Below, piece by piece: positions 13,823 to 52,887 of a DNA stretch of 64,000 nucleotides. Positions within the stretch are counted from its first letter, which is position 1. Each line of letters begins with the position of its first letter. The translations under genes were made by a program, and so were the position numbers. The notes beneath the pieces were generated by a model, which saw nothing but the letters and a program-made list of their open reading frames with translations, had not been told where the DNA came from and made no database searches. The DNA is from Onthophagus taurus (Eukaryota > Arthropoda > Insecta > Coleoptera > Scarabaeidae), in NCBI RefSeq assembly GCF_036711975.1, contig NC_091974.1, positions 62,001-126,000 of the forward strand, written 5' to 3'.

Positions 13823-13941
13823 TGTTATAGAAATCTACAGTTTTGTTTAGGGTTCTACCTTGCCTACACGTAAAAAACCTAATAAGAAGAGGTTAGAACC
13901 GTTAGATTAAAAAAGTGTAAGAATCATGTCGTTGTTGTACG
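13823..13941 (+). repeat. BEL-3 3' LTR, left portion
   Basis: Starts TGTTATAG after the purine-rich tract and is cut by the Polinton. No matching 5' copy is in the window, so the assignment rests on position only. Confidence 0.45.
13936..13941. repeat. Target-site duplication of outer Polinton, left copy
   Basis: TGTACG directly before the element end AGTAGATAA. The same six bases follow the other end at 49003-49008. Six-base duplications are the rule for Polintons. Confidence 0.95.
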
Positions 13942-14000
13942 AGTAGATAATAAATGCCGGTTCTGGAGCGGAAGTCAATCCCCATCCCCCTAATCCCCCA

Positions 14001-14068
14001 TGACGTCACTTCCGGTGTCATCCCACTTCCGGTATCTTGTCACTTCCGGTATCTTGTCACATCCGGTG
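14001..14068. promoter_or_regulatory. ETS/CRE-type site cluster in left repeat
   Basis: CACTTCCGGT occurs at 14007-14016, 14024-14033 and 14041-14050, with a one-base variant near 14059. The first overlaps a perfect TGACGTCA at 14001-14008. ACCGGAAGTG is a consensus ETS-family site and TGACGTCA the consensus CREB/ATF site; the ETS-CRE composite is known from animal promoters. The right repeat has the mirror arrangement. Function is inferred from the motifs. Confidence 0.45.
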
Positions 14069-14089
14069 TCATCTTCAACCCCATATGTT

Positions 14090-14450
14090 AGTGCCCTTTT
14101 GGCCCTTCAACCCCCATCCCCCTTCAACCCCATGTGAGTGCCCTAATGGACCCTTCAACCCCATGTGAGTGCCCTAATGGACCCTTCAACCCCATGTTAG
14201 TGCCCTATTGGCCCTTCAACCCCCATCCCTCCTTCAACCCCATGTTAGTGCCCTATTGGCTCCCTTCAACCCCTTCAACCCCATGTTAGTGCCCTATTGG
14301 TCCCCTTCAACCCCATCACCCCCTATTAGTGCCCTATTGGTCCCCTTCAACCCCATCACCCCCTTCAACCCCATGCTAGCGCCCTAATGGCTTCCTACTA
14401 CCCCGCTTCAACCCCAAGCCTCCCCCTACGATAGGGGATAACGCTCTAGC
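14090..14450. repeat. Minisatellite in left Polinton repeat
   Basis: Irregular tandem copies of a unit around CTTCAACCCCATGTTAGTG followed by CCCTATTGG, with unit lengths varying between roughly 28 and 45 bp. The right repeat holds the inverted counterpart at about 48540-48890. Confidence 0.8.
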
Positions 14451-14483
14451 GCCCTAACGGTCGGATAAATTTTTTTTTTTTTT

Positions 14484-14553
14484 GCCAACGCTCAGGATCG
14501 AACCCGGGCTGTCTGGTTGAGAGTCGGGCGTCTTGCCCGCTAGGCTACCGAAG
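14484..14553 (-). ncRNA. tRNA-like segment with Pol III A and B boxes
   Basis: On the minus strand TAGCCTAGCGGG (14536-14547) fits the tRNA A box exactly and GGGTTCGATCC (14495-14505) fits the B box, with tRNA-like spacing. The acceptor and T stems do not pair well, and an A-run, not a T-run, follows. It is therefore tRNA-derived (SINE-head-like) and not a working tRNA. The right repeat has a copy with one clear base difference. Confidence 0.55.
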
Positions 14554-14993
14554 AAAATGAGTTAAGAGTGTTTAAATAACGTTCAAGTAGAGATGACGAC
14601 GGCGCTCATACGTTTATCAGCGGAAGCTAATCCCCCGCGGAGCGATGACGACAACGACGACGATGACGTCGACGATCGTATGCTTATCAGCGGAAGTTAA
14701 TCCCCCGCGGAGCGATGACTGAATTGAAATAATACTCACCTTAAAATAGGTTATTTATTATTATTATTGATTGATTGATTGACTGATTGATGGTAGGAGG
14801 AGGAGGAGGAGGAGGAAGAGAAAATCACAAAAAATTAAAGTTAATACATATATTAAAAATTTAAATTTAAACATGCCCAAAATGATAAACATATGCAGAC
14901 AGCGCTTGTGATAACATCGATCAAAGTGCAGAGAATTTCGGCGACAACAGATAGTAAACTATTTAAACATTTACCCATTGTGTAGCAGTTTAA

Positions 14994-30837: not shown

Positions 30838-30973
30838 ATCGTAACGCTAAACGTCGACTGAAATATAAAACGGTGGCGATATATAATATATATTTGGGAG
30901 GAGAGAAAAATTACATAAGCGCCATCTATATTACAATAGGTCGCACATAAATTTCAGATAACGCTCAATGAGA

Positions 30974-31160
30974 GACGGCGTCAACGATCGTATGCTTATC
31001 AGCGGAAGTTAATCCCCCGCGGAGCGATGACTTAAAATATATTCTTTATTAGTATTATTGATTGATTGATTGATTGACTGATTGATGGTAGGAGGAGGAG
31101 GAAGAGAAAATCACAAAAAATTAAAGTTAGTACATATATTAAAAATTTAAATTTCAATTA
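30974..31160 (+). repeat. Internal partial copy of the left Polinton repeat
   Basis: Matches the inner part of the left terminal repeat (about 14670-14870) in the same orientation: CGATCGTATGCTTATCAGCG, CCCCCGCGGAGCGATGACT, the TTGA microsatellite, the AGG tract and CACAAAAAATTAAAGTTA. It lacks about 25 bases and has fewer repeat units. It lies directly beside gene B, as the true repeat lies beside gene A. Confidence 0.85.
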
Positions 31161-31180
31161 AACATAATTAACGGATAAGA

Positions 31181-31660
31181 TTAGTCTGTACCGTTCACGA
31201 CATCGGTCGCTAAATTGTAATAGAAACCGTCTTGGTTACGTTCGCGAAGAGGGGCCGGTGCTGCCCCATGATATCGTCTGCTGACGGGTGTGGACACTTC
31301 CGGAACAGTATGGGCCACCACCAAATTTTCAGCGACGTCCGCTACCGGAGAAGGAATCGTATAAATTTTCTGATCGAATCGGATTAAATTCGCAGGATTC
31401 TGTTTCCCAAAATCCCTCTTTCCGAGATATACTAAAGACATCCTATCGAGGGACCGTAACTCTTCATCAGTTATAACTTCTGCAATTCTCAACGGTAAAT
31501 ATACCGCAAAACCATCTTCCAACTCAACAATAACGGAGGGCCATTTGTTCGATGCGATTCTTTTAGCTCTCACAATCGGGTAAGGATGATCGATTTGTAG
31601 CGAAGAAAGCGAACGTTTCAATGGGAAAACGTATGAACCCAAAAGATTTAGACGAGACAT
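31181..31660 (-). CDS. Small Polinton gene B, paralogue of gene A
   Basis: 159 codons starting MSRLNLLGSYVFP. The middle holds VIVELEDGFAVYLPLRIAEVI, cut here into VELEDGFAVYLP and RIAEVITDEEL, the same strand and helix pattern as gene A. A longer C-terminal tail (APAPLRERNQDGFYYN) is specific to this copy. I recognise it as a type of small ORF common in insect Polintons but cannot name a function. Both paralogues sit at the inner edge of a terminal-repeat segment and read toward it. Confidence 0.7.
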   Translation of the reverse strand: MSRLNLLGSYVFPLKRSLSSLQIDHPYPIVRAKRIASNKWPSVIVELEDGFAVYLPLRIAEVITDEELRSLDRMSLVYLGKRDFGKQNPANLIRFDQKIYTIPSPVADVAENLVVAHTVPEVSTPVSRRYHGAAPAPLRERNQDGFYYNLATDVVNGTD

Positions 31661-33781: not shown

Positions 33782-34720
33782 TTACGATATATCTTTATTT
33801 GATATCCAAGAATTATGGGATGAATCGAATCCTAACCATTTTACGTACAACTTATCCTTCTTCCTCTTCAACACCTTTTCAACGAGGTAAACGTTAGGTT
33901 GAGCGGTCCTTTGAAGTTCGAATTTGTAAAAAGCGCCTTTAATCGGATGGCCACGCACATCCTCCAATAAATATGAAATTGGATTTGTGATATTCACTTT
34001 AACGATTTTAAACAATTCGGCGGTCCAGTTGGGCAGATATCCTTTATCAAACACATGTTTATATTTACTGATACGAACAGCGTCTCCAACTCTAAACTTT
34101 CCTCTGCCGGCAATTTTAATATGATTGTACACTGTATCGAGAAGTTTATTCTCTACCGATTTCGAATTTATTTCAGACGGTTTCATTTTCGTAGTCGAAT
34201 GTTTCGTACTGTTATATCGAGATGTTATATCCTCCAATAGGTGCGCCCATTTATGATTTCCATATAGACTGAAGAACTTGTAGATTCTTTGTTTAACGGT
34301 TCGAATTACACGTTCAGCCATCGACGTTTTCATAACGCTATACGATGAAAAATGATTAATTTTAAAATCCGACATCAACCATTTAAATTGACTGTTGTAG
34401 AACTCTTTGCCCTGATCGGTTTGTAGATTTCGAGGCGCGCGACCGTCGTCTGTGAGAATTGAGCGTAGCGCTGCGGTGACGTCCGTAGAATTTTTACTTT
34501 TTAACGGACGCGTCCAAAGAAACTTGGAGAAACAGTCTATAACCACTAATATATATTTATATCCGGAATTCAATCTGGCAAACTCAATCATTTCAATTAG
34601 ATCCGCCTGCCATAGATCATCGATCCCCTTCAGGATGGTTCTTCGTCTAGCGAAAATACGTCTAGCGGGGCGATGGAGCTCCTCCACAATGACACGTTTC
34701 GCATCTGACACTTTCTCCAT
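33782..34720 (-). CDS. Polinton integrase, retroviral DDE type with chromodomain
   Basis: 312 codons starting MEKVSDAKRV. It inserts the element and makes the 6-bp staggered cut. Catalytic core: first Asp in WQADLIEM (about residue 39), second in LQTDQGKEFYN (about 100), Glu in TSMAERVIRTVK (about 135). An SH3-like segment follows (GKFRVGDAVRISK). A C-terminal chromodomain (VYLVEKVLKRKKDKLYVKWL, then HNSWI, from about residue 278) is typical of Polinton and chromovirus integrases and may direct insertion to chromatin. The frame is intact. It is the likely source of activity for elements that lack an integrase, such as the nested one. Confidence 0.92.
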   Translation of the reverse strand: MEKVSDAKRVIVEELHRPARRIFARRRTILKGIDDLWQADLIEMIEFARLNSGYKYILVVIDCFSKFLWTRPLKSKNSTDVTAALRSILTDDGRAPRNLQTDQGKEFYNSQFKWLMSDFKINHFSSYSVMKTSMAERVIRTVKQRIYKFFSLYGNHKWAHLLEDITSRYNSTKHSTTKMKPSEINSKSVENKLLDTVYNHIKIAGRGKFRVGDAVRISKYKHVFDKGYLPNWTAELFKIVKVNITNPISYLLEDVRGHPIKGAFYKFELQRTAQPNVYLVEKVLKRKKDKLYVKWLGFDSSHNSWISNKDIS

Positions 34721-36824: not shown

Positions 36825-37565
36825 TCAATCTGGGTAGATGTATTTATCCATGCCTATACGATATCTACCATCCTTAATTTCAAAGTCTTTCATTATAATT
36901 AATGGGTTATATTTACCGTCGTTCCAACAGCGTCTACACATCTCTTTAAATTCTTCAAACCTCATATCGGTATTTACATGTTCGTCGTATACATGTTTCA
37001 AATTCACCTCATCCTGCTTGAAAAGCACTAACACGTTAGCGTTATCCCGAATTAGATGTTTAGGTATACGCGTATAGGTCTGTGTAAGGTAGAAAGAGTC
37101 TACGTTTCTATGTCTACCCATAGAAAAATACGCTCGAATTTTATCCTGCTTATCGCACGCCACATCATCGAATATAAAAATTGAATTCTCCTTAGCTTCA
37201 TTCGGATCCACTACGGCGTCATTATCGCTGAATCGATAGAATCCAATTTCCGGAAGTCGATTCAAAACTAAACTTAAAAGTTCATATTTCGGTTGCCCCA
37301 GTGACTTTGAGTAAATGTAGATATTTTCGAATGTCAGACCATTTTCATCAAATATTAGATTCAAAATTAAATTTGTCTTCCCACAGCCAGAAGGTCCGCA
37401 GACAATTGCGCGTAAACTGTTGGGTATTAAATCGCTATGTCTACGCTTCGTCTCCGTTGCTGATACCAGTCGATCGAGATCAGTCAATGGCATAGTTAGA
37501 GAAGGGTGTTTCACTACACGCATGTTGTCAAAAATTGACTGAGACTCTAACGTACCTGCACGCAT
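36825..37565 (-). CDS. Genome-packaging ATPase, FtsK/HerA (A32-like) family
   Basis: 246 codons. Walker A is CGPSGCGKTN (about residue 52) and Walker B is SIFIFDDVAC (about 125). A conserved glutamine/arginine region follows (YLTQTYTRIPKHLIRDNANVL). This family pumps DNA into preformed capsids in viruses with double jelly-roll capsids and is a core Polinton gene. The start at 37565 lies in the TATA-like sequence shared with the rightward genes; the second Met (MRVVKHPSL, 37523) is an alternative start. Intact. Confidence 0.92.
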   Translation of the reverse strand: MRAGTLESQSIFDNMRVVKHPSLTMPLTDLDRLVSATETKRRHSDLIPNSLRAIVCGPSGCGKTNLILNLIFDENGLTFENIYIYSKSLGQPKYELLSLVLNRLPEIGFYRFSDNDAVVDPNEAKENSIFIFDDVACDKQDKIRAYFSMGRHRNVDSFYLTQTYTRIPKHLIRDNANVLVLFKQDEVNLKHVYDEHVNTDMRFEEFKEMCRRCWNDGKYNPLIIMKDFEIKDGRYRIGMDKYIYPD

Positions 37566-37613
37566 ATATAAAGGTCCCGGTTATGTTTGAAATCGCATCA
37601 CTTGAGAGTAATG
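37560..37613 (+). promoter_or_regulatory. TATA box between the two gene arms
   Basis: TATATAAA at 37565-37572 lies about 40 bp upstream of the ATG at 37611. An initiator-like ATCACTT is near 37596. This supports 37611 over the ORF's upstream ATG at 37587 as the start of the rightward gene. The ATPase gene starts within the same 10 bp on the other strand, so the promoters of the two arms overlap or abut. Confidence 0.55.
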
Positions 37614-38492
37614 CTCGCTCAAGGTAACACATCAACAGTAGCTTCAATTCGAGGTGGAGGAATTTTAAATTCAATTATCAACAAACTCCCCGTAGAGTTA
37701 CACATTCCCGGATATCAATTTTGCGGGCCCGGAACAAAGTTGGATAAACGCTTGGCACGAGGTGAAAAAGGCATAAATCCGCTAGATCGCGCCTGTAGAG
37801 AACACGATATAGCCTATAGGGATAATAAAACATTAGATCAACGTCACGAGGCCGATAGGCGTTTAGAGGATACCGCTTGGGACAGGGTGAATGCGAAAGA
37901 CTCATCACTTGGTGAAAAGACTGCGGCGTGGTTAGTTACAAACGCTATGAAAGCGAAACGTAAATTAGGCATGGGGCATAAGCGTAAAGGTGGTGGTGGT
38001 AAAAGCCGGCGAAAACGTCGAGGTGGATCATTGAAGTCGAAAAGTGGTGGTAAACAGGTGACCTTTCAAAAGGGGATAGTTAAGCGTATAGCAAATGATT
38101 TACCGAAAAACACCGATAGTTTACGAGAAGCGGCGCGATTGGCGTTGAAAGGTGCTCGCGTAGCCGTAAAGTCTGTAGGCGGAAAGCGAAAAGTTAAAAT
38201 TCCACGAACAATCCCAATTCCAGTTAAACGAGGAGGAATATTACCACTTTTACCTGCGATATTCGCCGGACTGTCAGCTCTCAGCGCACTATCCGGAGGC
38301 GCGGCCGGAGTCTATAGAGCAGTAAAGAAAACTCAAGAGGCGAAGGATAAAATGAAAGAAGCTGAGCGGCACAATAAAGCAATGGAGGACATTGCGATCG
38401 GAAAGACGGGGAGTGGTATTTACATTAAAAGGTATAAAAAGGGATTGGGTATATATTTAACGAAGAAGAAGAAGACTCAAAAAAACTTTTAA
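37611..38492 (+). CDS. PLA2-domain virion protein fused to a membrane-active/core-like C-terminus
   Basis: 293 codons starting MLAQGNTSTV. The N-terminal third has the parvovirus-VP1-type phospholipase A2 signature: a calcium loop in YQFCGPGTKLDKR and a catalytic His-Asp pair in DRACREHDIAY. In parvoviruses this domain opens endosomal membranes. A long Lys/Arg/Gly-rich linker follows (KRKGGGGKSRRKRRGG), then a hydrophobic GGILPLLPAIFAGLSALSAL segment with an amphipathic helix, and a Gly-Ile-Tyr-rich basic tail. The C-terminal part resembles adenovirus pVI/pX-type minor proteins. The combination is known from virus-like Polintons (adintoviruses). Intact. Confidence 0.85.
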   Translation: MLAQGNTSTVASIRGGGILNSIINKLPVELHIPGYQFCGPGTKLDKRLARGEKGINPLDRACREHDIAYRDNKTLDQRHEADRRLEDTAWDRVNAKDSSLGEKTAAWLVTNAMKAKRKLGMGHKRKGGGGKSRRKRRGGSLKSKSGGKQVTFQKGIVKRIANDLPKNTDSLREAARLALKGARVAVKSVGGKRKVKIPRTIPIPVKRGGILPLLPAIFAGLSALSALSGGAAGVYRAVKKTQEAKDKMKEAERHNKAMEDIAIGKTGSGIYIKRYKKGLGIYLTKKKKTQKNF

Positions 38493-38795
38493 GGCTGCTA
38501 CCCAAGAGACCTCTAACCAACTTTGATATACTACGTTACGCTAAATCTCTAAATATCCCAAAATTCATTACAAAGCGGAGATGGAACTCATTGGGTAGTC
38601 TATAGAAAATCCGGTAATAGAGTGTTCTATTTTGATAGTTATGGGGATCTCAAACCCCCCAAAGAACTTTTAAAGTACTTTAAAGACACTCAAATTATAT
38701 ACAACCACGATAATTATCAAAAGGACAATCAGTACAATTGCGGGCATTTATGTATAAAATTCCTACTTCAAACAGGAAACGGGTCATATGTATAA
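38480..38795 (+). pseudogene. Adenovirus-type cysteine protease, internally deleted and frameshifted
   Basis: The N-terminal family motif (PLTNFDILRYAKSLNIPKF) is in one frame up to about 38568. The rest is in another frame from about 38573: SGDGTHWVVYRKSG with the catalytic His, VFYFDSYGD with the acidic residue, and YNCGHLCIKFLL with the catalytic Cys. The roughly 20-residue segment normally between them is missing, so the gene has an out-of-frame deletion. Adenain-type proteases mature the capsid proteins, so this copy could not complete virion maturation alone. It begins within the last codons of the PLA2 gene and ends 2 bp before the next start. Confidence 0.85.
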
Positions 38796-38797
38796 CG

Positions 38798-39577
38798 ATG
38801 TCGCAGACGTTCACACTGGTTGGTACGAAGAGCGAAATTTCTGAGGAATACTTTCCACCTATACAATTGGATTCCAACTTTAACTATTCATTGGGACTGA
38901 TTGGTCTGTACACATATAACAGCATACCCAACATTGAAGAGGGAGTTAACGATAAATTCCACTTTACAATAGTAAATCCCATCAATAAACAGCAGCAGCA
39001 ACAGCAGGGGCCTAAGAATACTTCAAAAGAGGTAATCGGAATTCCTACGGGCGTATACGAAATTTCAGATATTGAAAAATATTTGCAAAAGGAGATTCTA
39101 CGGTTGGTCGGATTGGATAAGATAGATAGACCTGAGGCCCTATTGTCCCTCAAGGCTAATAACAATACGTTACAGTGCGAGATTAGCAGCAACTACTTGG
39201 AGATTGATTTCACAGAATCCGATTCGATTGCTTCGATTTTAGGATTCTCCCAACGTACACTGAAACCCGAACAATTACACAGATCCGATCTCCCTGTAAA
39301 TATAATACGCGTGACGTCCGTTCGCGTGGAGTGTAATATAATTTCTGGATCATATTACAACAATAAGCAGTCACATACGCTATTCGAATTTGCACCGGCG
39401 GTAGATCCTGGCTTCAGTATAAATATAGAGCCTAGGAACCCAATATATTTCGCAGTCGACACCGATCGACCGATAACGAACATTACCCTTAGACTCCTGG
39501 ATCAGCGCGGTAGATTGGTAAACTTTCGAGGAGAAGAAATCGTAATTAGGTTAGAGCTGAAACGTGTTGCATTATAA
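38798..39577 (+). CDS. Minor capsid (penton-like) protein
   Basis: 259 codons from the ATG of MSQTFTLVGTKSEIS. The ORF extends upstream in frame, but that part overlaps the protease. The protein has the single jelly-roll penton pattern of Polintons: FPPIQLDSNFNYSLGLIGL near the start, then IGIPTGVYEISDIEKYLQ, then a strand-rich C-terminus (NITLRLLDQRGRLVNFRGEE). It is expected to occupy the vertices of the capsid. The stop overlaps the next start as TAATG. Confidence 0.8.
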   Translation: MSQTFTLVGTKSEISEEYFPPIQLDSNFNYSLGLIGLYTYNSIPNIEEGVNDKFHFTIVNPINKQQQQQQGPKNTSKEVIGIPTGVYEISDIEKYLQKEILRLVGLDKIDRPEALLSLKANNNTLQCEISSNYLEIDFTESDSIASILGFSQRTLKPEQLHRSDLPVNIIRVTSVRVECNIISGSYYNNKQSHTLFEFAPAVDPGFSINIEPRNPIYFAVDTDRPITNITLRLLDQRGRLVNFRGEEIVIRLELKRVAL

Positions 39578-39786
39578 TGGGATTTATGTTTGAAACGCCT
39601 GGTGGTGGTGGTGGAACCTATCGCCCACCACCATCACAGCCTACCTTGAAAAAGGGTAAAGGGTATAAATGTAAACGTAAGAGAACGTCTAGATCAGTCT
39701 GCAGAAAGACTTCGTTGCGACCTGACAACGTTCGTTTCCTTCAAGATTTGGGGTACCATGTCAACAAAAAAATTAAACATTTATAG
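39577..39786 (+). CDS. Small basic Gly/Pro-rich protein (core or cement type)
   Basis: 69 codons: MGFMFETPGGGGG, PPPSQPTLKKGKG, then KCKRKRTSRSVCRK and a short helical end. Its start overlaps the minor capsid stop by one base and its last 29 bases overlap the major capsid start. A conserved position between the two capsid genes and strong positive charge suggest a DNA-condensing or capsid-associated role, by analogy with small adenovirus core proteins. Confidence 0.6.
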   Translation: MGFMFETPGGGGGTYRPPPSQPTLKKGKGYKCKRKRTSRSVCRKTSLRPDNVRFLQDLGYHVNKKIKHL

Positions 39787-40984
39787 AGATCCTATCGTGG
39801 ATAATTCCATCGCTAGGGAAGAGGTGCACAGTTACCATCCTTCAACAAATTCGTTTCAAAACAACGATGTGTTCACCATTGAACTGAACCAAGAAGATGT
39901 TTTATTTTCCTTTTTCGAGAGTTATATACGAATTGAGGGTAACTATGTTAAAAAATTGACGGATCCTGCAGATAGCGTAAGTTTAACGCACAATTTGCCG
40001 GCATTTCTATTTGAGTACATCGCATTCGAACATAATGGCGTTGAAATAGAACGTGTTCGTGAACCAGGGCTCACATCGCTAATTAGAACCCTTCTACACC
40101 ATAACGATGTGGAATGTAAATCATTGGAAATTGCCGGGTTAAAATGGCCTCCTGAAGGAGCCTTACCCACGGTGGACAGCGCAAACGATAACTTTGTATT
40201 TCAAATCCCACTTGTGCACATTTTTGGATTATTTAGAGACTACAATCAGGTTATGAGAGGTCGTTTCAAGTTTAGGTTTGTCAGAAGCCGCACAGATTCA
40301 AACTGTTTTAAATCTATATCGACTAAAGCCGACCCCAGCACTGCAGAGTTTACCATAAAGACAGTGTCATTACTGGCGAAGCATGTTTATCCCAGTCCAT
40401 CGATAAAGATTAAACTTTTGGATGGGCTAAATAAAAATTCGAATATAGCTGTACCTTTTCGTAAATGGACGTTTTATGAATTGTCATCTATGAGACGGGG
40501 GAATAAAGAGATTTGGCCTGTTACATCAACTACTAACAGGGGTAGACCGCAATATGTCATAGTGGCATTCCAAACCAATCGAAAGGATCAGCCGAAATCT
40601 GATTGTACGCTGTTTGACCACTTGAACATTATAGATCTTAAAGTCTATTTAAATTCATATTCCTACCCATTCGAGTCTATGAATTTGGATTTTACGAAGG
40701 AAAACTACGTTGAACTATATAAAATGTATACGGAATTTCAATCATACATTTGGGAATCTAACCGAAAACAACCGATAATGGATTTCAATAGTTTCAAGAA
40801 AAGACCTCTATTCGTAATTGATACCACAAAGAATAATGATGAGGAGGCAGCGCCATCTGCATCATGTGAAGTGCGGCTTGAAATTCACAGTGATAAAGAT
40901 TTTCCCGCCAACACGAAGGCATACTGTATCCTAATACAGGAATCTATGTATACCTATAAGCCGCTGAGTGGGGAGGTCCGTTAA
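39758..40984 (+). CDS. Major capsid protein, double jelly-roll type
   Basis: 408 codons starting MSTKKLNIYRDPIVDNS. The predicted strands are evenly spread. Recognisable Polinton capsid segments are VFTIELNQEDVLFSFFESYI near the N-terminus, AFLFEYIAFEHNGVEIER, FVFQIPLVHIFGLFRDY, and near the C-terminus VRLEIHSDKDFPANTKAYC followed by YTYKPLSGEV. It would form the hexamers of an icosahedral shell. The assignment rests on these segments and on the flanking minor capsid and protease genes, not on a structural comparison. Intact. Confidence 0.8.
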   Translation: MSTKKLNIYRDPIVDNSIAREEVHSYHPSTNSFQNNDVFTIELNQEDVLFSFFESYIRIEGNYVKKLTDPADSVSLTHNLPAFLFEYIAFEHNGVEIERVREPGLTSLIRTLLHHNDVECKSLEIAGLKWPPEGALPTVDSANDNFVFQIPLVHIFGLFRDYNQVMRGRFKFRFVRSRTDSNCFKSISTKADPSTAEFTIKTVSLLAKHVYPSPSIKIKLLDGLNKNSNIAVPFRKWTFYELSSMRRGNKEIWPVTSTTNRGRPQYVIVAFQTNRKDQPKSDCTLFDHLNIIDLKVYLNSYSYPFESMNLDFTKENYVELYKMYTEFQSYIWESNRKQPIMDFNSFKKRPLFVIDTTKNNDEEAAPSASCEVRLEIHSDKDFPANTKAYCILIQESMYTYKPLSGEVR

Positions 40985-41021: not shown

Positions 41022-41546
41022 ATGGAGTTGCGTAGAGCAGTAGTTGATATTCAGGGGTTCTATATAGACTCTGAATTCATAGTTAAAGAATTCACACTTC
41101 TCGACCTTATCACCGACTATGCCGTACATCTCCACTTCAAGGCTGACAGACCCTTTCGATGCTTATCGGTTCAAGATCAACGATCCGCCAAGTATTTAGA
41201 GCGAAATCACCATAAACTATCGTATATTGGAGGATGGATGGATCTGTCGATGGGGTTAAATTAACTGGATGATATACTGTCGTTCTATGATGAGGTGTAT
41301 GTGAAGGGTAGCCAGAAGAGGGAGTTTTTGGAAAGCAGACCCTATTATCGGTTCCGATGTCATCGGAATTTGACGGTCAGGGATATTGCCTCGGAGTTTT
41401 CTGAGAAGGCGGTTGAAGAAGATACTAAATTGACGGCGACTTCCAATCCATGCTGGTTCCACAACGATGCTCCCGCAGTTTGCTCGCAAAATAACGCCAT
41501 AATTTTAAAGAATTTTTTATGTAATTTGCATAGACGTGTTATATAA
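41022..41546 (+). pseudogene. Conserved mobile-element ORF (VDIQGF family), one internal stop
   Basis: Starts MELRRAVVDIQGFYID at 41022. A TAA at 41262-41264 interrupts the frame, but the same frame resumes at once (LDDILSFYDEVYVKGSQKRE) and stays open to 41546, about 174 residues in all. The V-D-I-Q-G-F start, the FIVKEFT strand, VYVKGSQKREFL and a late Cys/His group (CWFHNDAPAVC) are typical of a family found in many insect mobile elements; an RNase H-like nuclease fold is possible but unproven. A recent nonsense mutation is the simplest reading. Confidence 0.6.
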
Positions 41547-41647
41547 GAAGTTGTTAAATTTTTTTTTAATACATATATTAACTTTTATTTATTGTATTTA
41601 TTTTTGAATCCTTCATGCATTCAGTGTCTGACCTCCATCACGCAAAC

Positions 41648-43060
41648 ATGTACATTGCGAGAGTTATTTTAGTATATACGCTCTGGGCGCTTCCAATACG
41701 AATTTTAATGGAAGATTTGATGTACGATAGGGATATGGAAATCTATAAATATCTCAAAGCATTTGGATATTTAAATGGGAGTGTGAGCGGTTTACATCAT
41801 CATCATCAGATGGGATATACAACAACAACAAAAATGACGGAAGGGTTACGTAAATTGCAGGAATATTTTCACCTGCCAGTATCGGGTGAAGTTGATTTTA
41901 AAACTTTGGATTTGATTGGTAAACCAAGATGTGGGAATAAAGACTTGGAAGACATATCAGTAGACGCTAAACGTACGATACATCGAAAGTGGGGGACCCC
42001 AATAGTTAAATGCGCCATCTATAATAAATATCCAGATGGCTTTCCCAATATCGTTGAAAGGGCATTTGCGGTTTGGGCTAAGCATATAGATTTAAAGTTT
42101 CAGAGCTCGTTTACCGACGTCAACATTCTAATCGGGTTTAAAGGTTACAACCATACGTGCATAAGGAACGTTGGATCAATGTGTGGTAGTACATTCAAAA
42201 ATGGAATTTTAGCTCACGCATACTATCCTTATATTAATGGACGTAATGTTGAAATCCACATAAATTCAGATTTAGAGTTTGATTTATCCAACTCTACAGT
42301 AGATGGGAAATATAACCTATTTTTGGTAATGGTGCATGAAATTGGGCATTCCTTAGGTTTAATGCATCGAGTTGAACTCGATTCCATCATGCATCCCAAC
42401 TATGGTAACATGAGAATTGAGGATTTCAAGTTGAATAGCAGAGATATTGTGGCAATTCAAGCTATATATGGTAGACCCAAATTGTATACATCATCGACTG
42501 TTTCAAGTTACGTTACATCATCATATAGGACCACGACGAGTCGGTCTACGACAAATCCTGCCGTTCAACCCTCACCCTTTAGAGACGTTTGTGATGTGGA
42601 TTCAAAGTTTTCCGGTTTTTTGATTCACTATCAAACCATGTACGTGTTTTACAAACAATGGGTTTGGTTAATAGATTTAAAGTCTAAACGACCTAAACAA
42701 CCCAATCCTATAGACATAAATGATTGGCTGCCGACTTTGAGGAATGTTTTTCGTACTGTAGACTATAGTTATAAAGTGTCTATCTCGCCTAGAGGTGACC
42801 TTATACTTATAATGGAAAATGCAATATACAGAATTGATTTTAAGAGTATGAATGTGCGGTCTGTGTGGCCGTTCACTTCGACCGAGTTAGGGTTTAATAA
42901 TTTTACTCGAGTTAACGGGATAGTTACAAGCAATTACGGTTTACCTTACATATTTTTCGATGATATGTACGCAATTCAAGTGGATTTTAATTACTTTAGA
43001 AAGGAGAGAGTTATAGTTTCGATTGGTGAACTTTTTCCGGGAATCCCAACTTCTTTATAA
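41648..43060 (+). CDS. Matrix metalloproteinase carried by the Polinton
   Basis: 470 codons from the second Met (MYIARVILVYTLWALPIRIL, a good signal peptide); the ORF opens 11 codons earlier. Order: signal peptide; propeptide with a peptidoglycan-binding-like helix region (LRKLQEYFHLPVSGEVD); cysteine switch PRCGNKD at 93-99; catalytic domain with LAHAYYP, the zinc site HEIGHSLGLMH at 230-240 and Met-turn SIMHP at 246-250; a Ser/Thr-rich hinge; and a degenerate hemopexin-like domain (MYVFYKQWVWLIDL). All residues for a latent, self-activated zinc protease are present. Such enzymes cut extracellular matrix; some insect baculoviruses encode one. It lies between capsid and replication genes, inside intact element ends, so it is cargo. 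Intact. Confidence 0.9.
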   Translation: MYIARVILVYTLWALPIRILMEDLMYDRDMEIYKYLKAFGYLNGSVSGLHHHHQMGYTTTTKMTEGLRKLQEYFHLPVSGEVDFKTLDLIGKPRCGNKDLEDISVDAKRTIHRKWGTPIVKCAIYNKYPDGFPNIVERAFAVWAKHIDLKFQSSFTDVNILIGFKGYNHTCIRNVGSMCGSTFKNGILAHAYYPYINGRNVEIHINSDLEFDLSNSTVDGKYNLFLVMVHEIGHSLGLMHRVELDSIMHPNYGNMRIEDFKLNSRDIVAIQAIYGRPKLYTSSTVSSYVTSSYRTTTSRSTTNPAVQPSPFRDVCDVDSKFSGFLIHYQTMYVFYKQWVWLIDLKSKRPKQPNPIDINDWLPTLRNVFRTVDYSYKVSISPRGDLILIMENAIYRIDFKSMNVRSVWPFTSTELGFNNFTRVNGIVTSNYGLPYIFFDDMYAIQVDFNYFRKERVIVSIGELFPGIPTSL

Positions 43061-43225: not shown

Positions 43226-43921
43226 ATGGATATCGAGGGAGGAGTGAGCGACGTCTGTGAAGAGATGGGCTTGGATTATTGGAATTCAATCGGCGCGCAG
43301 TGGAAACGGTATCGTGAATTGATAAAAAAGGAGACTAAATTTATCGGGGAAACGCAATTTTCAACCGAATCTTTCAGCATTAAAGTTGGAATTAGCGTCG
43401 CTAGAGGGGGTACAACCTGTGTAAAGTTCGTAGTTAGAACATGCAAAGGTTTGGAATCCCAGTCGCATCAAATTACGTTTTTACGTCAAGATTGGGAACA
43501 CCTAATATCTACCCTTAAACTGATACGTTTCAATGTAGAAGTTTCCTCGCAGACGCTACCATTAGCCGAAGGTAACCTAAAGGTCGAATTTGACGATGAT
43601 GATGATTACCTGTATCTAACGTATGTGATTGAGGATTCCGAAAGTGGTGTATTCATACCGATTTTACTTCATTCAACGGATATCGATAAGATTTTCGCAA
43701 TGGAGAAGCTAATTACCTATAAAATGAACCTTTTGGATAGCCTAAATTTTATGGAATACATTAAATCTCTACAGCTTGTTGACGACGACGACGACGACGA
43801 CGATGATATGTATAACACGACGTCCATTGAAGAATTCTGTTTAAATAATTTATCGGAAATTAATTTTTATGTGATGGAATACTTGGAAATAATAAACTCC
43901 ACTACAACAGTTTCTATTTGA
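43226..43921 (+). CDS. Acidic-tailed, PC4-like putative ssDNA-binding protein
   Basis: 231 codons from the ATG of MDIEGGVSDVCEEMG; the ORF opens 11 codons earlier without an ATG. Residues about 45-100 (KFVVRTCKGLESQSHQITFL then DWEHLISTLKLI) have the strand-strand-helix pattern of the PC4 transcription coactivator domain, which binds single-stranded DNA. Two acidic runs follow (EFDDDDDYLYL, and nine Asp near residue 200). Acidic tails are common in ssDNA-binding proteins of replication systems, and the next gene is the polymerase. The role is inferred; the fold match is by eye and weak. Confidence 0.5.
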   Translation: MDIEGGVSDVCEEMGLDYWNSIGAQWKRYRELIKKETKFIGETQFSTESFSIKVGISVARGGTTCVKFVVRTCKGLESQSHQITFLRQDWEHLISTLKLIRFNVEVSSQTLPLAEGNLKVEFDDDDDYLYLTYVIEDSESGVFIPILLHSTDIDKIFAMEKLITYKMNLLDSLNFMEYIKSLQLVDDDDDDDDDMYNTTSIEEFCLNNLSEINFYVMEYLEIINSTTTVSI

Positions 43922-44080: not shown

Positions 44081-47000
44081 ATGTTTCTTTGCAAAGTGTG
44101 TAACGGTGCGTTTACCTTAAAACACAATCTTACCCGACATATACGTTTGAAACACGGTGATGTGCGGGAATCGAACTTTAAATGCAGTATCTGCGAAAAA
44201 GTTTATTCAAGATCTGACAAATTGAAACACCATCAAAGAAGCGTACATGAACTAGATGTTCCACGTTATGTTGCGCCGCAGCCGCCGCCGCCGCCACCAC
44301 TACCACCATCTTTACAAAGTACATCGGTCGGTCCGGTTGAACAGACTTCACTGCGTCATCCGCCTAAACAACAACCCTCCAACCCTTCATCAAGTACCTC
44401 CAACTTATGTCCAATTTGCGGTGTTGACTTTATATCTACCACTCACCTACGGACTCATCTAAGATTGGAACATGCGACCCCGGTCGAAGGTGAAGATAAC
44501 GTCGATAGATTGGAATCATGTTTTAAAGGCAGAGTTTGCACCTATAGAGTCGCAGACGTGTTGGTCGATGATGATATATCATCGTTCCTAACAAGATCAG
44601 AAGGAGCTGTTAAACGAATGATTGAGGTTAGTTTAGATCGCTGTGGTCCCTCTATAAAGGTTCAGATTGAGTTTTTTGCGAATTATGTTAAAGCCGCGTA
44701 TGATGAAAATGGGGATGAAGACGTATTAATGTCCGAGAAAAATTTTAATTGTACATTTCAAGTTGTTTCGGTGGGTACGGATTTGCATGAGGTGTATGTT
44801 GGGATGTGTAGGGAAATTTTAGCTCAAAGCGAAGAATTTCAAGAACGCGACTCTGGGTGGGCCTTCTTCTCCGTATCTCACCTCCTGCTTAATATTAATA
44901 AATTTGAACCTATACCCGGAGCATTGTATATACGTTTACCACAGGTAATTGCTGAAAAACATGCGTGCGTAAATATTAAAAACTATACGGACGATGCTTG
45001 TTTAGCGTGGTGTTTGACGGCGGCTCTTCATCCTGCAAATCATAGTCACGATCGAACTACAAGCTACCCTCATTATAGTCAAGTACTTAATTTGCACGGG
45101 ATTACATTTCCCATTACTTTAAAAGATATAATTAATGTAGAAAAATTAAATAATTTACGTATTAATGTTTACGAATTGATAAGTAGTAGTAGTGGTAAAT
45201 ACACGGTGGAAGGGCCAATTTATTTTACCAAACAAAGACGCGATATTCATATAAATTTGCTTTATCTATACGAAAACGGGAAGGGACATTTCGTTTTAAT
45301 TAAAAATCTTTCAAGACTAATATCGAGTCAAGTCACGCGCCGCGAACATTCTATACACCTTTGTGATGGATGTTTAACGCGGTTTTCATCCGCAGACAAG
45401 TTACTCACTCATCAGACTTATGATTGTAATCATGTGATGACCGTTTTACCTACAACCGATTTAAAATCTAAACCAAACTTTTTCGGTTTAAAAACTCCGC
45501 AAAATATTTTAGAATTTAACAATTATAAATTCACTCAGATGGCGCCATTTGTCATCTACGCTGACTTTGAATCGCTTTTAAAACCGATCGATTATTGTAA
45601 GCAGAGTAGCGCTAAATCTTTTACGGAAAAAATTGAGGAACATCAACCTTACAGTTTTGCTTATTACATTGTTTCCAATATTGGTAGCAGTTTAAATAGA
45701 TTTGAAACGTATACGGGGCCGGATGCGCCTAAAATTTTTATCTCTAAATTAATTGATGATGTTAAATTACTTTACAGCAAATACTTTAAAACTATAAAAC
45801 CAATGATACCTTTAACGGCCGATGAGCAACGGCATTTCGATTCGGCCGAAAATTGTATTATTTGTCAAAATCCTTTTACTTCAAACCAGGTTAAGGTTCG
45901 TGATCATTGTCATATTAGCGGCAAATACCGAGGTCCCACCCATTCAAATTGTAATCTAAATTTCAAACTTCAAAATTTTATTCCGATATTTTTTCATAAC
46001 TTTAGTGGGTATGATTGTCATTTATTTATTAAAGAAATGGCCGAAGCAGACAAAGATGGACTTGATGTGTTACCTAATAATAAAGAGAGATACATTAGTT
46101 TTAGTAAAAGAGTGTTGGTTGATAAGGTAATTAGTGAAGACAAATCTGTTGAAAATGTTTTCTTTAAATTAAGATTTGTTGATTCATTTCGGTTCATGGC
46201 ATCTTCATTAGATTCTTTAGCAGGTAACCTTAATGAGTTTGATTTTATTCACGTGCGTAAATTTTACCCACACAATGATTATTTTAAATTGTTGACCAAA
46301 AAGGGAATCTTTCCCTACGCCTTTATGTCATCATTTGATAGGCTTAATGCCACATCCTTACCCCCTAAAGAGGCATTTTTTAATAATTTAAATTTAGAGG
46401 GAATATCTGATGAGCAATATACCCATCAAACTGTTTGGAAGAAATTTAATTGTCATACTTTTAAGGATTATTCCGATTTATACTTAAAGACCGATGTTCT
46501 TCTATTAGCTGATGTATTTGAGAAATTTAGACGAGTATGTTTCAAAACGTACGTTTTAGATCCCGCGCATTATTATACGGCACCGGGGTTATCTTGGGAT
46601 GCTATGCTAAAATTTACGAAAATTAAATTGGAATTGTTGACGGATATTGATCAAGTTCATTTCGTTAAAAAAGGTATCCGTGGGGGCATTTCACAATGCT
46701 CTCTACGTCATGCTAAAGCAAACAATAAATATATGGAAAATTATGATGCTAATTCACCTTCAAAATTTTTAATGTATTGGGACGCTAATAATTTGTATGG
46801 GTGGGCAATGTCTCAATTTATCCCCGTTTCCGACTTTAAATGGTTGACTGAAAACGAAATTCAAAATTTAGATTTTAATAATACAGCCGATGATTACGAT
46901 TTCGGATATATTTTAGATGTGGATATTGCGTATCCCGAACACTTGCACAACCTGCATAATGATCTACCTTTCTTAGCCGAAAATTTAATCCCCCCTAACT

Positions 47001-48049
47001 GTAAATGTGAGAGCGATAAACGATTAATTCCAAATTTATTTGATAAGACAAATTATGTAATTCATTACAGAAATTTAAAACAAGCCGTTGCACACGGATT
47101 AATTATAAGTAAAGTAAATAGAGTTTTATCGTTTAAACAATCCCCTTGGTTAAAGTCATATATCGATAAAAATACAGAGTTACGCCAATCGGCTAAAAAT
47201 GATTTTGAAAAGGATTTTTTTAAATTAATGAACAACGCCGTTTTCGGTAAAACCATGGAAAATGTTGATAAGCGAGTCGACGTCCGCTTAGTAACCAGTT
47301 GGGACGATATCAGGTTTGACAAAACCGCAGGTAGACCTAGACTTGGAGCTCGGAGTTTAATCGCTAAATTAAATTTTAAAAGTGTTAAAGTATTCACAGA
47401 AACGTTTTCGGCAATTCAAATGGAGCGTCTTCATATCGTTTACGATAAACCTCTATACGTTGGTTTTACAGTTTTAGAACTCTCAAAATTATTAATGTAC
47501 GATTTTTATTATGATTTTTTAAAACCTAAATACGGCGAGGACGTTCAGTTGTGTTACATGGATACCGACAGTTTCACCGTACTAATTAAGTCTGACGATG
47601 TGTATAACGATGTTAAATTAAATTTAGATAAATTTGATACATCTAACTACAGTCCCGATAATCGGTTTGACATCCCCTTGCAAAATAAAGCGGTTTTAGG
47701 TAAGATGAAGGATGAAAATTGCGGAAACGTAATGGTCGAATTTATTGGCTTAAGATCGAAGGTGTACGCAAATCGGGTTGCTGATGGGCGGGTTACTAAA
47801 AAATCTAAAGGTATTAGGAAAGCTGTGGTTAAACAAAAGCTTTCATTTCAAAATTATTTCGACTGTTTACATTCAAATTCCATCGTGTCTAGAAAACAGT
47901 TATTATTTAGAAGTTTTAACCACACGGTTTTTACCGTTTTACAAAACAAATTGGCCCTTTCCCCACATAATTCAAAGCGATGTATCGATGCCGATGGTAT
48001 TAAAACATTGGCTTGGGGTCATTTTACAACTATTTCGAATAACGTTTAA
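44081..48049 (+). CDS. Protein-primed family B DNA polymerase with N-terminal C2H2 fingers (Polinton PolB)
   Basis: 1322 codons, intact. Three C2H2 fingers (residues 1-55 and about 110-130) with a proline-rich spacer; a CLAWCLTAALHP domain with a later conserved His region, possibly a papain-like fold; a fourth finger (CDGCLTRFSSADKLLTH); exonuclease I FVIYADFESLL (about 490); an endonuclease VII-like zinc motif (CIICQNPF, RDHCHISGKYRG, about 590-625); exonuclease II HNFSGYDCHLF; exonuclease III YLKTDVLLLADV; polymerase A YWDANNLYGWAM (about 898); B KLMNNAVFGKTMEN (about 1048); C CYMDTDSF (about 1158). It copies the linear element from a terminal protein. It points outward toward the right terminal repeat. 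Confidence 0.95.
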   Translation: MFLCKVCNGAFTLKHNLTRHIRLKHGDVRESNFKCSICEKVYSRSDKLKHHQRSVHELDVPRYVAPQPPPPPPLPPSLQSTSVGPVEQTSLRHPPKQQPSNPSSSTSNLCPICGVDFISTTHLRTHLRLEHATPVEGEDNVDRLESCFKGRVCTYRVADVLVDDDISSFLTRSEGAVKRMIEVSLDRCGPSIKVQIEFFANYVKAAYDENGDEDVLMSEKNFNCTFQVVSVGTDLHEVYVGMCREILAQSEEFQERDSGWAFFSVSHLLLNINKFEPIPGALYIRLPQVIAEKHACVNIKNYTDDACLAWCLTAALHPANHSHDRTTSYPHYSQVLNLHGITFPITLKDIINVEKLNNLRINVYELISSSSGKYTVEGPIYFTKQRRDIHINLLYLYENGKGHFVLIKNLSRLISSQVTRREHSIHLCDGCLTRFSSADKLLTHQTYDCNHVMTVLPTTDLKSKPNFFGLKTPQNILEFNNYKFTQMAPFVIYADFESLLKPIDYCKQSSAKSFTEKIEEHQPYSFAYYIVSNIGSSLNRFETYTGPDAPKIFISKLIDDVKLLYSKYFKTIKPMIPLTADEQRHFDSAENCIICQNPFTSNQVKVRDHCHISGKYRGPTHSNCNLNFKLQNFIPIFFHNFSGYDCHLFIKEMAEADKDGLDVLPNNKERYISFSKRVLVDKVISEDKSVENVFFKLRFVDSFRFMASSLDSLAGNLNEFDFIHVRKFYPHNDYFKLLTKKGIFPYAFMSSFDRLNATSLPPKEAFFNNLNLEGISDEQYTHQTVWKKFNCHTFKDYSDLYLKTDVLLLADVFEKFRRVCFKTYVLDPAHYYTAPGLSWDAMLKFTKIKLELLTDIDQVHFVKKGIRGGISQCSLRHAKANNKYMENYDANSPSKFLMYWDANNLYGWAMSQFIPVSDFKWLTENEIQNLDFNNTADDYDFGYILDVDIAYPEHLHNLHNDLPFLAENLIPPNCKCESDKRLIPNLFDKTNYVIHYRNLKQAVAHGLIISKVNRVLSFKQSPWLKSYIDKNTELRQSAKNDFEKDFFKLMNNAVFGKTMENVDKRVDVRLVTSWDDIRFDKTAGRPRLGARSLIAKLNFKSVKVFTETFSAIQMERLHIVYDKPLYVGFTVLELSKLLMYDFYYDFLKPKYGEDVQLCYMDTDSFTVLIKSDDVYNDVKLNLDKFDTSNYSPDNRFDIPLQNKAVLGKMKDENCGNVMVEFIGLRSKVYANRVADGRVTKKSKGIRKAVVKQKLSFQNYFDCLHSNSIVSRKQLLFRSFNHTVFTVLQNKLALSPHNSKRCIDADGIKTLAWGHFTTISNNV

Positions 48050-48430
48050 ATATATTTAAGTAGGTTAAGTAGAAAATAGTATCATTTTATTCGAGTATGT
48101 TTAATTTAAATTTAAATTTTTAATATATGTATTAATATATGTATATGTATTAACTTTAATTTTTTGTGATTTTCTCTTCCTCCTCCTCCTACCATCAATC
48201 AGTCAATCAATCAATCAATAATAATAATAAATAACCTATTTTAAGGTGAGTATTATTTCAATTCAGTCATCGCTCCGCGGGGGATTAACTTCCGCTGATA
48301 AGCATACGATCGTCGACGTCATCGTCGTCGTTGTCGTCATCGCTCCGCGGGGGATTAGCTTCCGCTGATAAACGTATGAGCGCCGTCGTCATCTCTACTT
48401 GAACGTTATTTAAACACTCTTAACTCATTT

Positions 48431-48502
48431 CCTTCGGTAGCCTAGCGGGCAAGACGCCCGACTCTCAAGCAGACAGCCCGGGTTCGATCCTGAGCGTTGG
48501 CA
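48431..48502 (+). ncRNA. tRNA-like segment with Pol III A and B boxes, right repeat
   Basis: A box TAGCCTAGCGGG at 48438-48449 and B box GGGTTCGATCC at 48480-48490, followed by an A-run. Mirror copy of 14484-14553; both boxes are identical between copies. Confidence 0.55.
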
Positions 48503-48539
48503 AAAAAAAAAAAAATTTATCCGACCGTTAGGGCGCTAG

Positions 48540-48890
48540 AGCGTTATCCCCTATCGTAGGGGGAGGCTTGGGGTTGAAGCGGGGTAGTAGGAAGCCATTA
48601 GGGCGCTAGCATGGGGTTGAAGGGGGTGATGGGGTTGAAGGGGACCAATAGGGCACTAATAGGGGGTGATGGGGTTGAAGGGGACCAATAGGGCACTAAC
48701 ATGGGGTTGAAGGGAGCCAATAGGGCACTAACATGGGGTTGAAGGGGGGATGGGGGTTGAAGGGGGGATGGGGGTTGAAGGGCCAATAGGGCACTAACAT
48801 GGGGTTGAAGGGTCCATTAGGGCACTCACATGGGGTTGAAGGGGGATGGGGGTTGAAGGGCCAAAAGGGCACTAACATGGGGTTGAAGAT
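48540..48890. repeat. Minisatellite in right Polinton repeat
   Basis: Tandem GGGTTGAAGG..CCAATAGGGCACTAACATG-type units, inverted relative to the left repeat. ORFs rich in Pro/Phe/Asn here are read from the repeat and are not genes. Confidence 0.8.
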
Positions 48891-48893
48891 GAC

Positions 48894-48943
48894 ACCGGAA
48901 GTGACAAGATACCGGAAGTGGGATGACACCGGAAGTGACGTCA
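48894..48943. promoter_or_regulatory. ETS/CRE-type site cluster in right repeat
   Basis: ACCGGAAGTG at 48894-48903, 48911-48920 and 48928-48937. The last overlaps TGACGTCA at 48936-48943, giving the composite ACCGGAAGTGACGTCA about 60 bp from the element end. Confidence 0.45.
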
Positions 48944-49002
48944 TGGGGGATTAGGGGGATGGGGATTGACTTCCGCTCCAGAACCGGCATTTATTATCTA
49001 CT

Positions 49003-49008
49003 TGTACG
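49003..49008. repeat. Target-site duplication of outer Polinton, right copy
   Basis: TGTACG directly after the end CTACT, identical to 13936-13941. Confidence 0.95.
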
Positions 49009-50478: not shown

Positions 50479-52887
50479 TCATTGTTTTTTGTGGTTCTTC
50501 TCAACCGCTATTGCAATATTATTTAAATGTTTTCTTAAGGTGTCGTCCTTTAGTACGGTTATGATATCGCAGTTCCGTATGGCCTCTCTGTCAGCTTCGA
50601 CGTCCAGCACTAGTTTGCAGTCGTAAAACATATGATCGGGTGTTCCCACAATTCCACATTCACATTTGTTGGTATTTGTGATGTTACACTCATGCAGATA
50701 CGATGGATAAGGGCCGTGACCTGTTATGAATTGAATCAATCTTTTGTTTAAGTCCAAATTCATTTCCAATCTTTGTGTTACATTTGGAAACAAGTTGTAA
50801 GTTCTTCTTCCCGTCGTTGAATTTAGCCATCGTATCTGCCACATGTCCATTATTACGTTGTTTATGTCCCTTTTGCTTTGTACCTGTTTACCGAGTATGT
50901 TAGTTACTTTTTCGGTTTCTCCTTTCTTGTACCAGTAGTACGCTGCCATCTTTTGTACTTCCAGGTCCATTGGTACATTTCCAGTAGCAACTGTTAGAGC
51001 ATTCGTCGATGTTGTTCTGTAAGCTCCTGTTAGTCTTAATAGGACGCTTCTTTGTGCTCTATTTATTCGTTCTCTTTGTTTTATTTGCTTTGTTTTTTCA
51101 GCCCAGGTACTAGCTGCATTCGTTATTATTCCGGTCATCACTGATTTCATGTATAATTGAATCATGTGTAGTGGAATTTTGTACTGTCTAGTAGCAAGTC
51201 TTGCTATCTTGTGCATGGCCGCTGTCGCTTTTTCACAGGTCTTGTTGATATGTTCTGTAAAGACCAGACGTTCACCAATGTGCACGCCCAGATACTTGAT
51301 TGTTTTTTGTCTTTTTATAGATCTATTGTCTAGTTTTATAAGTGGGTCTCTCTTCATTGTTCCCTTCATCAAGGCGTAGGATGTCTTGTTGCCGGACATT
51401 GTTAATTTATTTTCCTTGCACCACCTGGACACTCTCTCAAGCACGGTGTTTGATTTTGCTTCCAGATCTCTTCTGTTGTCGCCTTCAACTATGATTATAA
51501 CGTCATCAGCGTATGCAAACGTAGCATTTGCATTCGCTTCCGTGTCCAGGCAGTATAGTAAGTCTTCTACTTGTATATCCCAGAACGTTGGACCGCAAAC
51601 CGATCCCTGGGGACAGCCTTTTGTTAGTCGTTTTGTGACTCTCAGATGTTTTCCGCAATTCAGAAAGGCATACCTGTCTTGGCAATAACTTCTGATTACC
51701 TTATACAAGTAGTTTGGACAGTCAATGGCTTTTAATCTATTAAACAATGCCGGCCACCATAAGTTGTCAAATGCACCTGATATGTCTATTAGCAATGTGA
51801 TTACATATTTTGACGAAATGCTTTTTATCCTTTCTGTCACTGCGTTTACCGCGTCTTCGGTCGATCTTCCTTTTCTGTATGCGAACTGGTTCGGATGTAT
51901 CAAGTTTATACCTTCTCTGTGTAACTGTAATCTGGACACTAGTATCTTTTCGAGAATTTTACCTAGTATATTTAAAAGACATATCGGTCTATACGATTTT
52001 GCCGCTGTTATAGGTTTGCCTTCACCTTTGTGTAAGATTGTTACTGACGCTTGTTTGTAAATCTTTGGAAACCTTCCTTGCTTAAGACAGGAATTATAAA
52101 GAAATGTTAGAATCGGTGCTAGTTTGTATTTCAGAGCTTTTATTACTTCACCTGGTATGTTGTCGGGTCCTGGTGCTTTGTTGTTCTTAAGCGTATGCAT
52201 GAAATAGAGTGTTTCTTCAATCGTTACTGGTTGCAACTCCTTCCCGGATGGACACCTCTCTACCAGCTGCTCTCTCAGCTGCTTCTGACTGGGTGTTTCG
52301 TTCTGATCATCATCATCGGGCAGGAGTGTTTCCAATAGCGTTGTCGCTGTATCATGCCATCCATTTGTGAAGGACCCGTCTTCTCTTTGTAAAGAAGAGA
52401 ATAAAATAGGTGCCCTCATCTTGTTTGTTACTATTTTGTAAGGAACCCCCCAGGGGTCCAAAGCTAGATATTCTTCAACAAACTGTGAAAGTGGAAGTGC
52501 AACATTGTCATTAGGGGGAATATAGATACAACAAATATTTAGTTTATCATTATCATTAAGCGATCCACAATACAAAGTTACGCCAACAGCTTCCACGCCC
52601 GCAAACCAATCCGAACGTTCAACACTACGGATAGATGTATCAACACCTACAAGAACACCTCCGCCACGGGGCATATCGACTTGATTAGTACTCACTCGAT
52701 CACGCCTATAAATAACATACGAATCGGGAAGTACCTCAGCAGAAAAAATTCCTGGATGAAGCCACGTTTCCGTCAAACAAATTACGCTAGCGTCTATATT
52801 CAGCGTATTATTATAGATTGTTGTTAATTTTGTACGGAGTCCACGAACGTTTTGATAATAAAACGATAGCTCGGGCATTGCTAACAA
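50479..52887 (-). pseudogene. Chimeric non-LTR ORF: CR1/jockey-type endonuclease N-part joined to R1-like RT
   Basis: 802 codons open. Residues 1-140 are the start of an apurinic-type endonuclease (SFYYQNVRGLRTK, VICLTETWLHPG, NICCIYIPPND) that breaks off before its catalytic His. From ALDPWGVPYKIVTNK (near 52465) it is R1-clade: APGPDNIPGEVI, SYRPICLLNILGK, LIDISGAFDNLWW, GCPQGSVCGPTFW and FAYADDVIIIVEG. A C-terminal Cys motif follows (CNITNTNKCECGIVGTPDHMF). The two parts come from different clades and happen to be in frame. It cannot encode a working endonuclease. The join is either a template switch or an insertion of a 5'-truncated R1 element. Confidence 0.7.

Follow-up and report, generated by a model that had tools for sequence, protein, structure and literature searches.

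The window analysed here, a 64,000-nucleotide stretch of the Onthophagus taurus genome (contig NC_091974.1, positions 62,001 to 126,000 of the forward strand), contains a capsid-coding Polinton that carries a gene for a matrix metalloproteinase (MMP). Comparison with related elements of the same genome showed that the MMP has a set position, after the capsid genes and before PolB, in a beetle Polinton lineage and is common to four O. taurus sublineages. An intronless, animal-type MMP captured by such an element had been proposed in the initial annotation, made from the letters of the window alone, and the family proved to occupy ~61 places in the genome. The copy in the window is a recent, truncated member of this family.

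A conserved gene at a fixed place

The window MMP is encoded by one uninterrupted, intronless frame of 481 amino acids that matches Pfam Peptidase_M10 (E = 3e-28) and, in its prodomain, PG_binding_1 (E = 2.7e-5), with proMMP-3 as the best sequence match in PDB (E = 5.7e-23). Judged by eye the N-terminus is hydrophobic, and a Ser/Thr-rich linker joins the catalytic to the C-terminal domain. The cysteine switch, zinc site and Met-turn picked out in the initial annotation lie where listed in Table 1, and its 3′ boundary at 43060 holds; the start it gave, 41648, is the 12th codon of a frame that opens at 41615. Contrary to the claim made there, the gene is not intact. Relative to two sister copies (L009, 556 amino acids; L002, 552 amino acids), a deletion of ~0.12 kb close to the 3′ end makes the frame stop at 481 amino acids, which costs it the last ~75 residues, including the second of two conserved cysteines of the C-terminal domain. 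The hemopexin-like end described before is hence present in part only, and the domains upstream of the deletion remain open.

Copies longer than this one are present at other places. The genome search listed 96 matches; nine short pieces on contig C10, at places already counted, were left out, and the remaining 87 rows minus five host rows correspond to ~61 MMP places. At 34 of the 61 the match spans the whole length and is free of in-frame stops, in eight cases as two pieces. Five of these eight are single open frames of 568-572 amino acids, the two-piece match at C11:11155139 shows a gap of ~33 residues within one frame, and those at C1:22315191 and C8:19107755 appear frame-broken. By tblastn identity to the window copy, the long copies form group A (92-100%), group B (43%), group C (45-46%) and group E (38-39%). 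The 12 other group A rows of the alignment stand for seven places (five of them fetched twice), six reaching 549-556 residues and one 518; copies of groups B, C and E extend to 542-559 residues. A PRC[GQ] cysteine switch is kept in 23 of 24 rows, or 18 of 19 places (five again fetched twice), L021 being the one without it.

Linkage of the gene to Polintons rests on a search with the packaging ATPase and on 20 hand-picked loci. The ATPase count covers the best 101 of 150 listed rows, the 49 lowest-scoring being omitted. An MMP match on the opposite strand within 12 kb, mostly 3.1-4.4 kb away, accompanied 16 of 18 ATPases at ≥93% identity and 16 of 42 at 75-84%. The single ATPase at 65% and the 40 at 50-55% had none. 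The two unpartnered ATPases of the top band (C11:4552940 and C11:4472522) have an MMP ~2.5 kb away on the same strand, consistent with rearrangement; one of 16 counted pairs (C11:4869414) involves just a short MMP piece of 49% identity, 8.6 kb away. The ATPase search itself returned 325 first-look candidates, of which 150 were scored and listed, indicating a very heavy Polinton load made up of several diverged families.

The 20 loci were fetched as 10-kb stretches, 18 picked for an MMP match and two for an ATPase without one. In all 18 MMP-picked loci the gene follows a short open reading frame (ORF) of 80 amino acids, with 17 long matches and one of only 90 codons (L028), and PolB follows within the fetched stretch in 16, L009 and L013 being rearranged or cut. 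The same gene thus recurs at the same place in related Polintons. In the two loci picked without MMP (L026, L027), PolB is also missing from the 10-kb stretch. Six of the seven group E loci (L019, L020, L021, L022, L024 and L025, all nearly alike) have lost the block from ATPase to capsid genes between the integrase and the 80-amino-acid ORF, and their integrase piece is interrupted by stops, with MMP and PolB matches kept; the seventh, L023, retains its capsid block.

Three further pairs of element termini were found around MMP matches on contig C11, two of them with a perfect target duplication of their own. One (10814268-10836306) is flanked by ATCAAC and its MMP copy has a stop; the other (4421131-4443106; L097, L098) is flanked by TTTAGT, read by eye. 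For the third pair (L099, L100) no target duplication was seen. By eye, the TTTAGT element seems to be inserted in an ORF35777-like gene of another Polinton.

Origin, structural loop and selection

In a tree of 51 rows built on the catalytic part, five O. taurus Polinton rows, 12 named leaf-beetle proteins and 12 unnamed rows formed one clade (support 100/99). All five host MMPs of O. taurus fell outside it, host C5 within the adjoining MMP2 branch. This arthropod MMP2-type branch is the nearest to the Polinton family and shares its catalytic fold, the union of the two having support of 89/84 only, and the stem of the family is long (0.7 changes per column). Approximately unbiased (AU) tests rejected trees that united the Polinton rows with one host gene (C5, p = 0.0009; C6, p = 0.0031; C2, p = 0.0037) or with all five (p = 3e-45). 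On this phylogenetic evidence, a recent derivation from the MMP genes of the beetle itself is rejected. They also mostly match exon by exon, in contrast to the intronless Polinton gene. We infer that an MMP2-like gene of an arthropod was captured long ago, in the form of intronless DNA. Baculovirus MMPs are absent from the tree because none came up in the searches.

The leaf-beetle proteins (Diabrotica, Diorhabda, Callosobruchus and Phaedon), known here from proteins alone, share with the O. taurus family a loop cysteine (see below) and a similar C-terminal tail, yet are only 24-28% identical to the group A protein. Clustering at 90% identity gathers as many as 20 of their sequences in one cluster, which agrees with a multi-copy element gene and may include isoforms.

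The structural zinc/calcium loop of M10A enzymes carries an H-x-D motif. Polinton-family MMPs depart from it: all 29 rows have a Cys, 8-11 positions downstream of the His, and 28 of them keep the His itself. Of the 22 other MMP rows, the MMP2-type host genes among them, 21 place Asp one or two positions behind the His and the remaining row is gapped. Because H173, C183, H194 and H208 are invariant in the 23-row family alignment, analogy with known MMP structures suggests that Cys may replace Asp as a metal ligand in this loop.

Selection was gauged by pairwise Nei-Gojobori ratios of nonsynonymous to synonymous substitution (dN/dS), in which pooled pairs share branches and are hence non-independent, and by event counts made without a tree. 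Within groups, dN/dS of the MMP was 0.349 in A (28 pairs) and 0.185 in E (21 pairs); between groups it was 0.22-0.32, a rough figure only, since mean dS there is 1.1-2.1. The single C pair had 14 changes and a ratio of 1.62; the two B copies did not differ. The event counts comprised 17 nonsynonymous and 20 synonymous changes in group E (ratio 0.226, p = 1e-5) and 16 and 19 in the E copies without capsid genes (0.224, p = 1.5e-5), as against 23 and 12 in group A (0.517, p = 0.052); with one copy per group the ratio was 0.514, uncorrected for saturation. Among comparison genes, the major capsid protein (MCP) showed 2 nonsynonymous and 7 synonymous events in A (0.076) and PolB 52 and 31 in E (0.429). 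Further ratios in A were 0.321 for the penton gene (p = 0.02), 0.654 for the ATPase (p = 0.44) and 0.136 for the 80-amino-acid ORF (p = 0.02), the last of which reached 0.452 in E (p = 0.23). Judged from these substitution patterns, long-term purifying selection on the MMP is clear in group E and between groups, and constraint in the window's own young group A appears weak and non-significant. Its age and its maintenance by selection make it probable that the MMP has a function in the element.

Architecture of the window element

The element shows the hallmarks of a Polinton, namely terminal inverted repeats, a 6-bp target duplication, an rve integrase, an A32-like ATPase and a double jelly-roll capsid protein (Table 1), and the MMP lies between its capsid block and the PolB frame, as first annotated. 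The single set of terminal repeats with a perfect target duplication that the initial annotation had placed around the gene was recovered too, with the amendment that the 35 kb enclosed by these repeats also hold a second, diverged Polinton-like block (~15.1-30.6 kb; 15075-30594). PolB pieces of this block, on the minus strand and 36-50% like the main PolB, lie at 17213-20570 and 24528-27665, within a direct repeat 5.7 kb long (16378-21997 and 23669-29335, 96%) that has inverted arms. An inner repeat (30957-31198 versus 48064-48341) was considered as the element ends and rejected, as it is without a target duplication; the true ends are 13942 and 49002.

The PolB frame returned no polymerase match in Pfam, PHROGs or PDB sequences and was named by its place in the gene order and by the motifs NLYG and YMDTDS, which we take to be those of PolB. 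The frame has C2H2 zinc fingers at its N-terminal end and also contains a stretch resembling endonuclease VII. No Pfam match to an adenovirus-type maturation protease was found among the ORFs scanned, no dedicated search having been made. In the region of the 80-amino-acid ORF (41022-41520), the window copy has an in-frame stop where the frame continues in L014 and L019. Adjoining the element is an ORF of 802 amino acids (50479-52887, minus strand) that looks reverse-transcriptase-like by eye and probably belongs to a long interspersed element, and direct repeats occur at 54.5-55.0 kb of the window.

Table 1 Features of the Polinton and its MMP gene (positions within the window)
Feature	Position	Strand	Remark
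Left target-site duplication TGTACG	13936..13941		directly outside left terminal repeat
Left terminal inverted repeat, starts AGTAGATAAT	13942..14852	+	93.75% versus right repeat, 912 columns
rve integrase, chromo-like end	33782..34720	-	Pfam rve E 6.1e-13; chromo below Pfam cut-off
A32-like packaging ATPase	36825..37565	-	Pfam Pox_A32 E 7.2e-7
Parvovirus-type phospholipase A2 domain protein	37611..38492	+	Pfam Phospholip_A2_4 E 1.5e-12; frame scanned from 37587
Probable penton/minor capsid protein	38750..39577	+	by gene order; no Pfam match
Double jelly-roll MCP	39758..40984	+	Pfam DJR-like_dom E 2.8e-61
80-amino-acid ORF directly before MMP	41022..41264	+	no family assigned
MMP frame, 481 amino acids	41615..43060	+	open frame; 3′ end truncated versus sister copies
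Cysteine switch PRCGNKD	41924..41944	+	residues 104-110
Loop H180 to C190	42152..42184	+	family mark; other MMPs have Asp shortly after the same His
Zinc site HEIGHSLGLMH	42335..42367	+	residues 241-251; fits HExxHxxGxxH
Met-turn IMHP	42386..42397	+	residue 258
Hemopexin-like C-terminal domain	42581..43057	+	part left
ORF between MMP and PolB	43226..43921	+	no family assigned; kept in 9 further fetched loci (groups A, B, C, L028) and both MMP-less loci
Putative protein-primed PolB frame	44081..48049	+	by motifs and place in gene order
Right terminal inverted repeat, starts AGTAGATAAT	48142..49002	-	pair alignment 93.75%; same terminus elsewhere in genome too
Right target-site duplication TGTACG	49003..49008		perfect 6-bp match to left one

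Possible roles of the Polinton MMP

Taken as a whole, we lean towards the view that a selected MMP, fixed in this Polinton lineage after an old capture of an MMP2-like gene, acts as a secreted matrix cutter that aids passage through tissue. Of the roles considered, tissue breach seems the likeliest. Upon expression of the Polinton, the MMP would be secreted as a proenzyme and activated through loss of its prodomain; by cutting basement membrane or extracellular matrix, the active enzyme may then let particles or infected cells move from one tissue to another, in the way proposed for granulovirus MMPs. The proposed mechanism is based on domain anatomy, conservation and linkage to capsid genes. 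What weighs against it are the group E copies that keep the MMP without capsid genes: they are hard to reconcile with a simple virion role, except as satellites of full elements or as copies too young for decay.

Several DNA viruses of insects are known to encode MMPs. The consulted part of PMC4192325 states that an MMP is present in every betabaculovirus sequenced by 2014 and is thought, in granuloviruses, to aid virus spread. The betabaculovirus enzyme resembles the beetle one in belonging to a lineage of insect DNA virus MMPs with the same fold; the beetle MMP, compared with it by fold alone, differs in riding a multi-copy, integrated Polinton and in its changed loop. The MMP of the HzNV-2 nudivirus, Hz2V068, is described in the portion of PMC3280521 consulted as having a signal peptide and catalytic and hemopexin domains, with a proposed role in tissue remodelling and an aphid MMP as its best match. 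It is likewise the best viral fold match of the beetle MMP (E = 7.1e-28), albeit from a large nudivirus of a moth. Among Polintons, the nearest parallel is in nematodes, where, according to the parts consulted of PMC10680173 and PMC12941216, Mavericks bear captured protease genes and have moved between species: their cargo includes wosp proteases and krma kinases (PMC10680173), and msft-1 derives from a Maverick-associated protease family (PMC12941216). These elements live in another host phylum, and wosp was compared by its published description only. No earlier account of an MMP in a Polinton was found in the open-access literature, as judged from the titles and beginnings of abstracts listed. 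Protease cargo of nematode Mavericks and MMPs of insect DNA viruses are already known; what appears new is the fixed presence of an MMP in Polintons of a lineage that codes for capsids.

An unlikely alternative, which nonetheless deserves weight, is that the MMP is a stable Polinton gene directed at host immunity or cell adhesion (haemocytes, melanisation or peptide cleavage) and not at tissue barriers. A virus expressing the XecnGV MMP produced a distinct melanisation pattern in larvae, as reported in the consulted part of PMC4192325, and in all six O. taurus group pairs the C-terminal domain is better conserved than the catalytic one (54-70% versus 45-53%), which may mean one fixed partner. 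The domain set, however, matches that of matrix-cutting MMPs. Slightly less plausible is a passenger gene, captured once and either functionless for the element or serving a selfish role such as that of wosp, the family behind a toxin-antidote element. The nematode wosp, krma and msft-1 cases provide precedents, an MMP match is lacking near 26 of the 42 ATPase copies in the 75-84% band, and constraint is weak in group A, yet the long-term purifying selection and the fixed place across four sublineages count against such cargo.

Transfer between insect viruses, with the Polinton MMP derived from or passed to a baculovirus, nudivirus, ascovirus or entomopoxvirus, appears improbable. The best viral fold matches are indeed MMPs of HzNV-2, a granulovirus and an ascovirus, but a fold match is no proof of descent, and sequence identity to the MMP-named rows is 16-28%. 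Moreover, no baculo-, nudi-, asco- or entomopoxvirus surfaced in three protein searches or the IMG/VR scans, all limited in reach. The scans of IMG/VR with the window MMP alone and with the MCP gave no match; with the family alignment 49 loci were returned (E = 1e-20 to 1e-4), of which the one inspected in detail, L041, resembles a tailed-phage contig, and when the window's genes were compared with all 49 by tblastn, the MMP alone matched at E 1e-2. Finally, a one-off retrocopy of the beetle's own MMP within one Polinton, the outcome named at the outset as one that would undo the proposal, has the missing introns in its favour but is refuted by the copy number, by the conserved synteny in other Polintons, by identities of only 38-46% between sublineages and by the AU tests against three single host genes and all five.

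Returning to tissue passage, we tentatively entertain a bolder form of it as a possible, if speculative, extension. The MMP would be an infection gene of a Polinton virus of beetles that is infectious still, or was so until recently, and that breaks through basement membrane, and the lineage with the loop cysteine would have moved with Polintons between dung and leaf beetles. Polintons would then be a sixth group of insect DNA viruses with an MMP, beside nudi-, granulo-, asco-, irido- and entomopoxviruses, and capsid-less satellites would keep the gene.

One practical consequence concerns annotation, as at least eight public O. taurus proteins annotated as MMPs belong to the Polinton family. 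A public 'MMP-16-like' model (P0008) joins the 80-amino-acid Polinton ORF (54% over 70 residues) to an MMP catalytic part, a fusion in which element genes have been annotated as host genes. More broadly, the finding bears on the nature of animal Polintons, which may be transposons or else viruses able to exit their host cell: as the MMP is expected to act outside the cell, conservation of its gene hints at an extracellular phase, and the finding would place Polintons beside large insect DNA viruses with the same tool.
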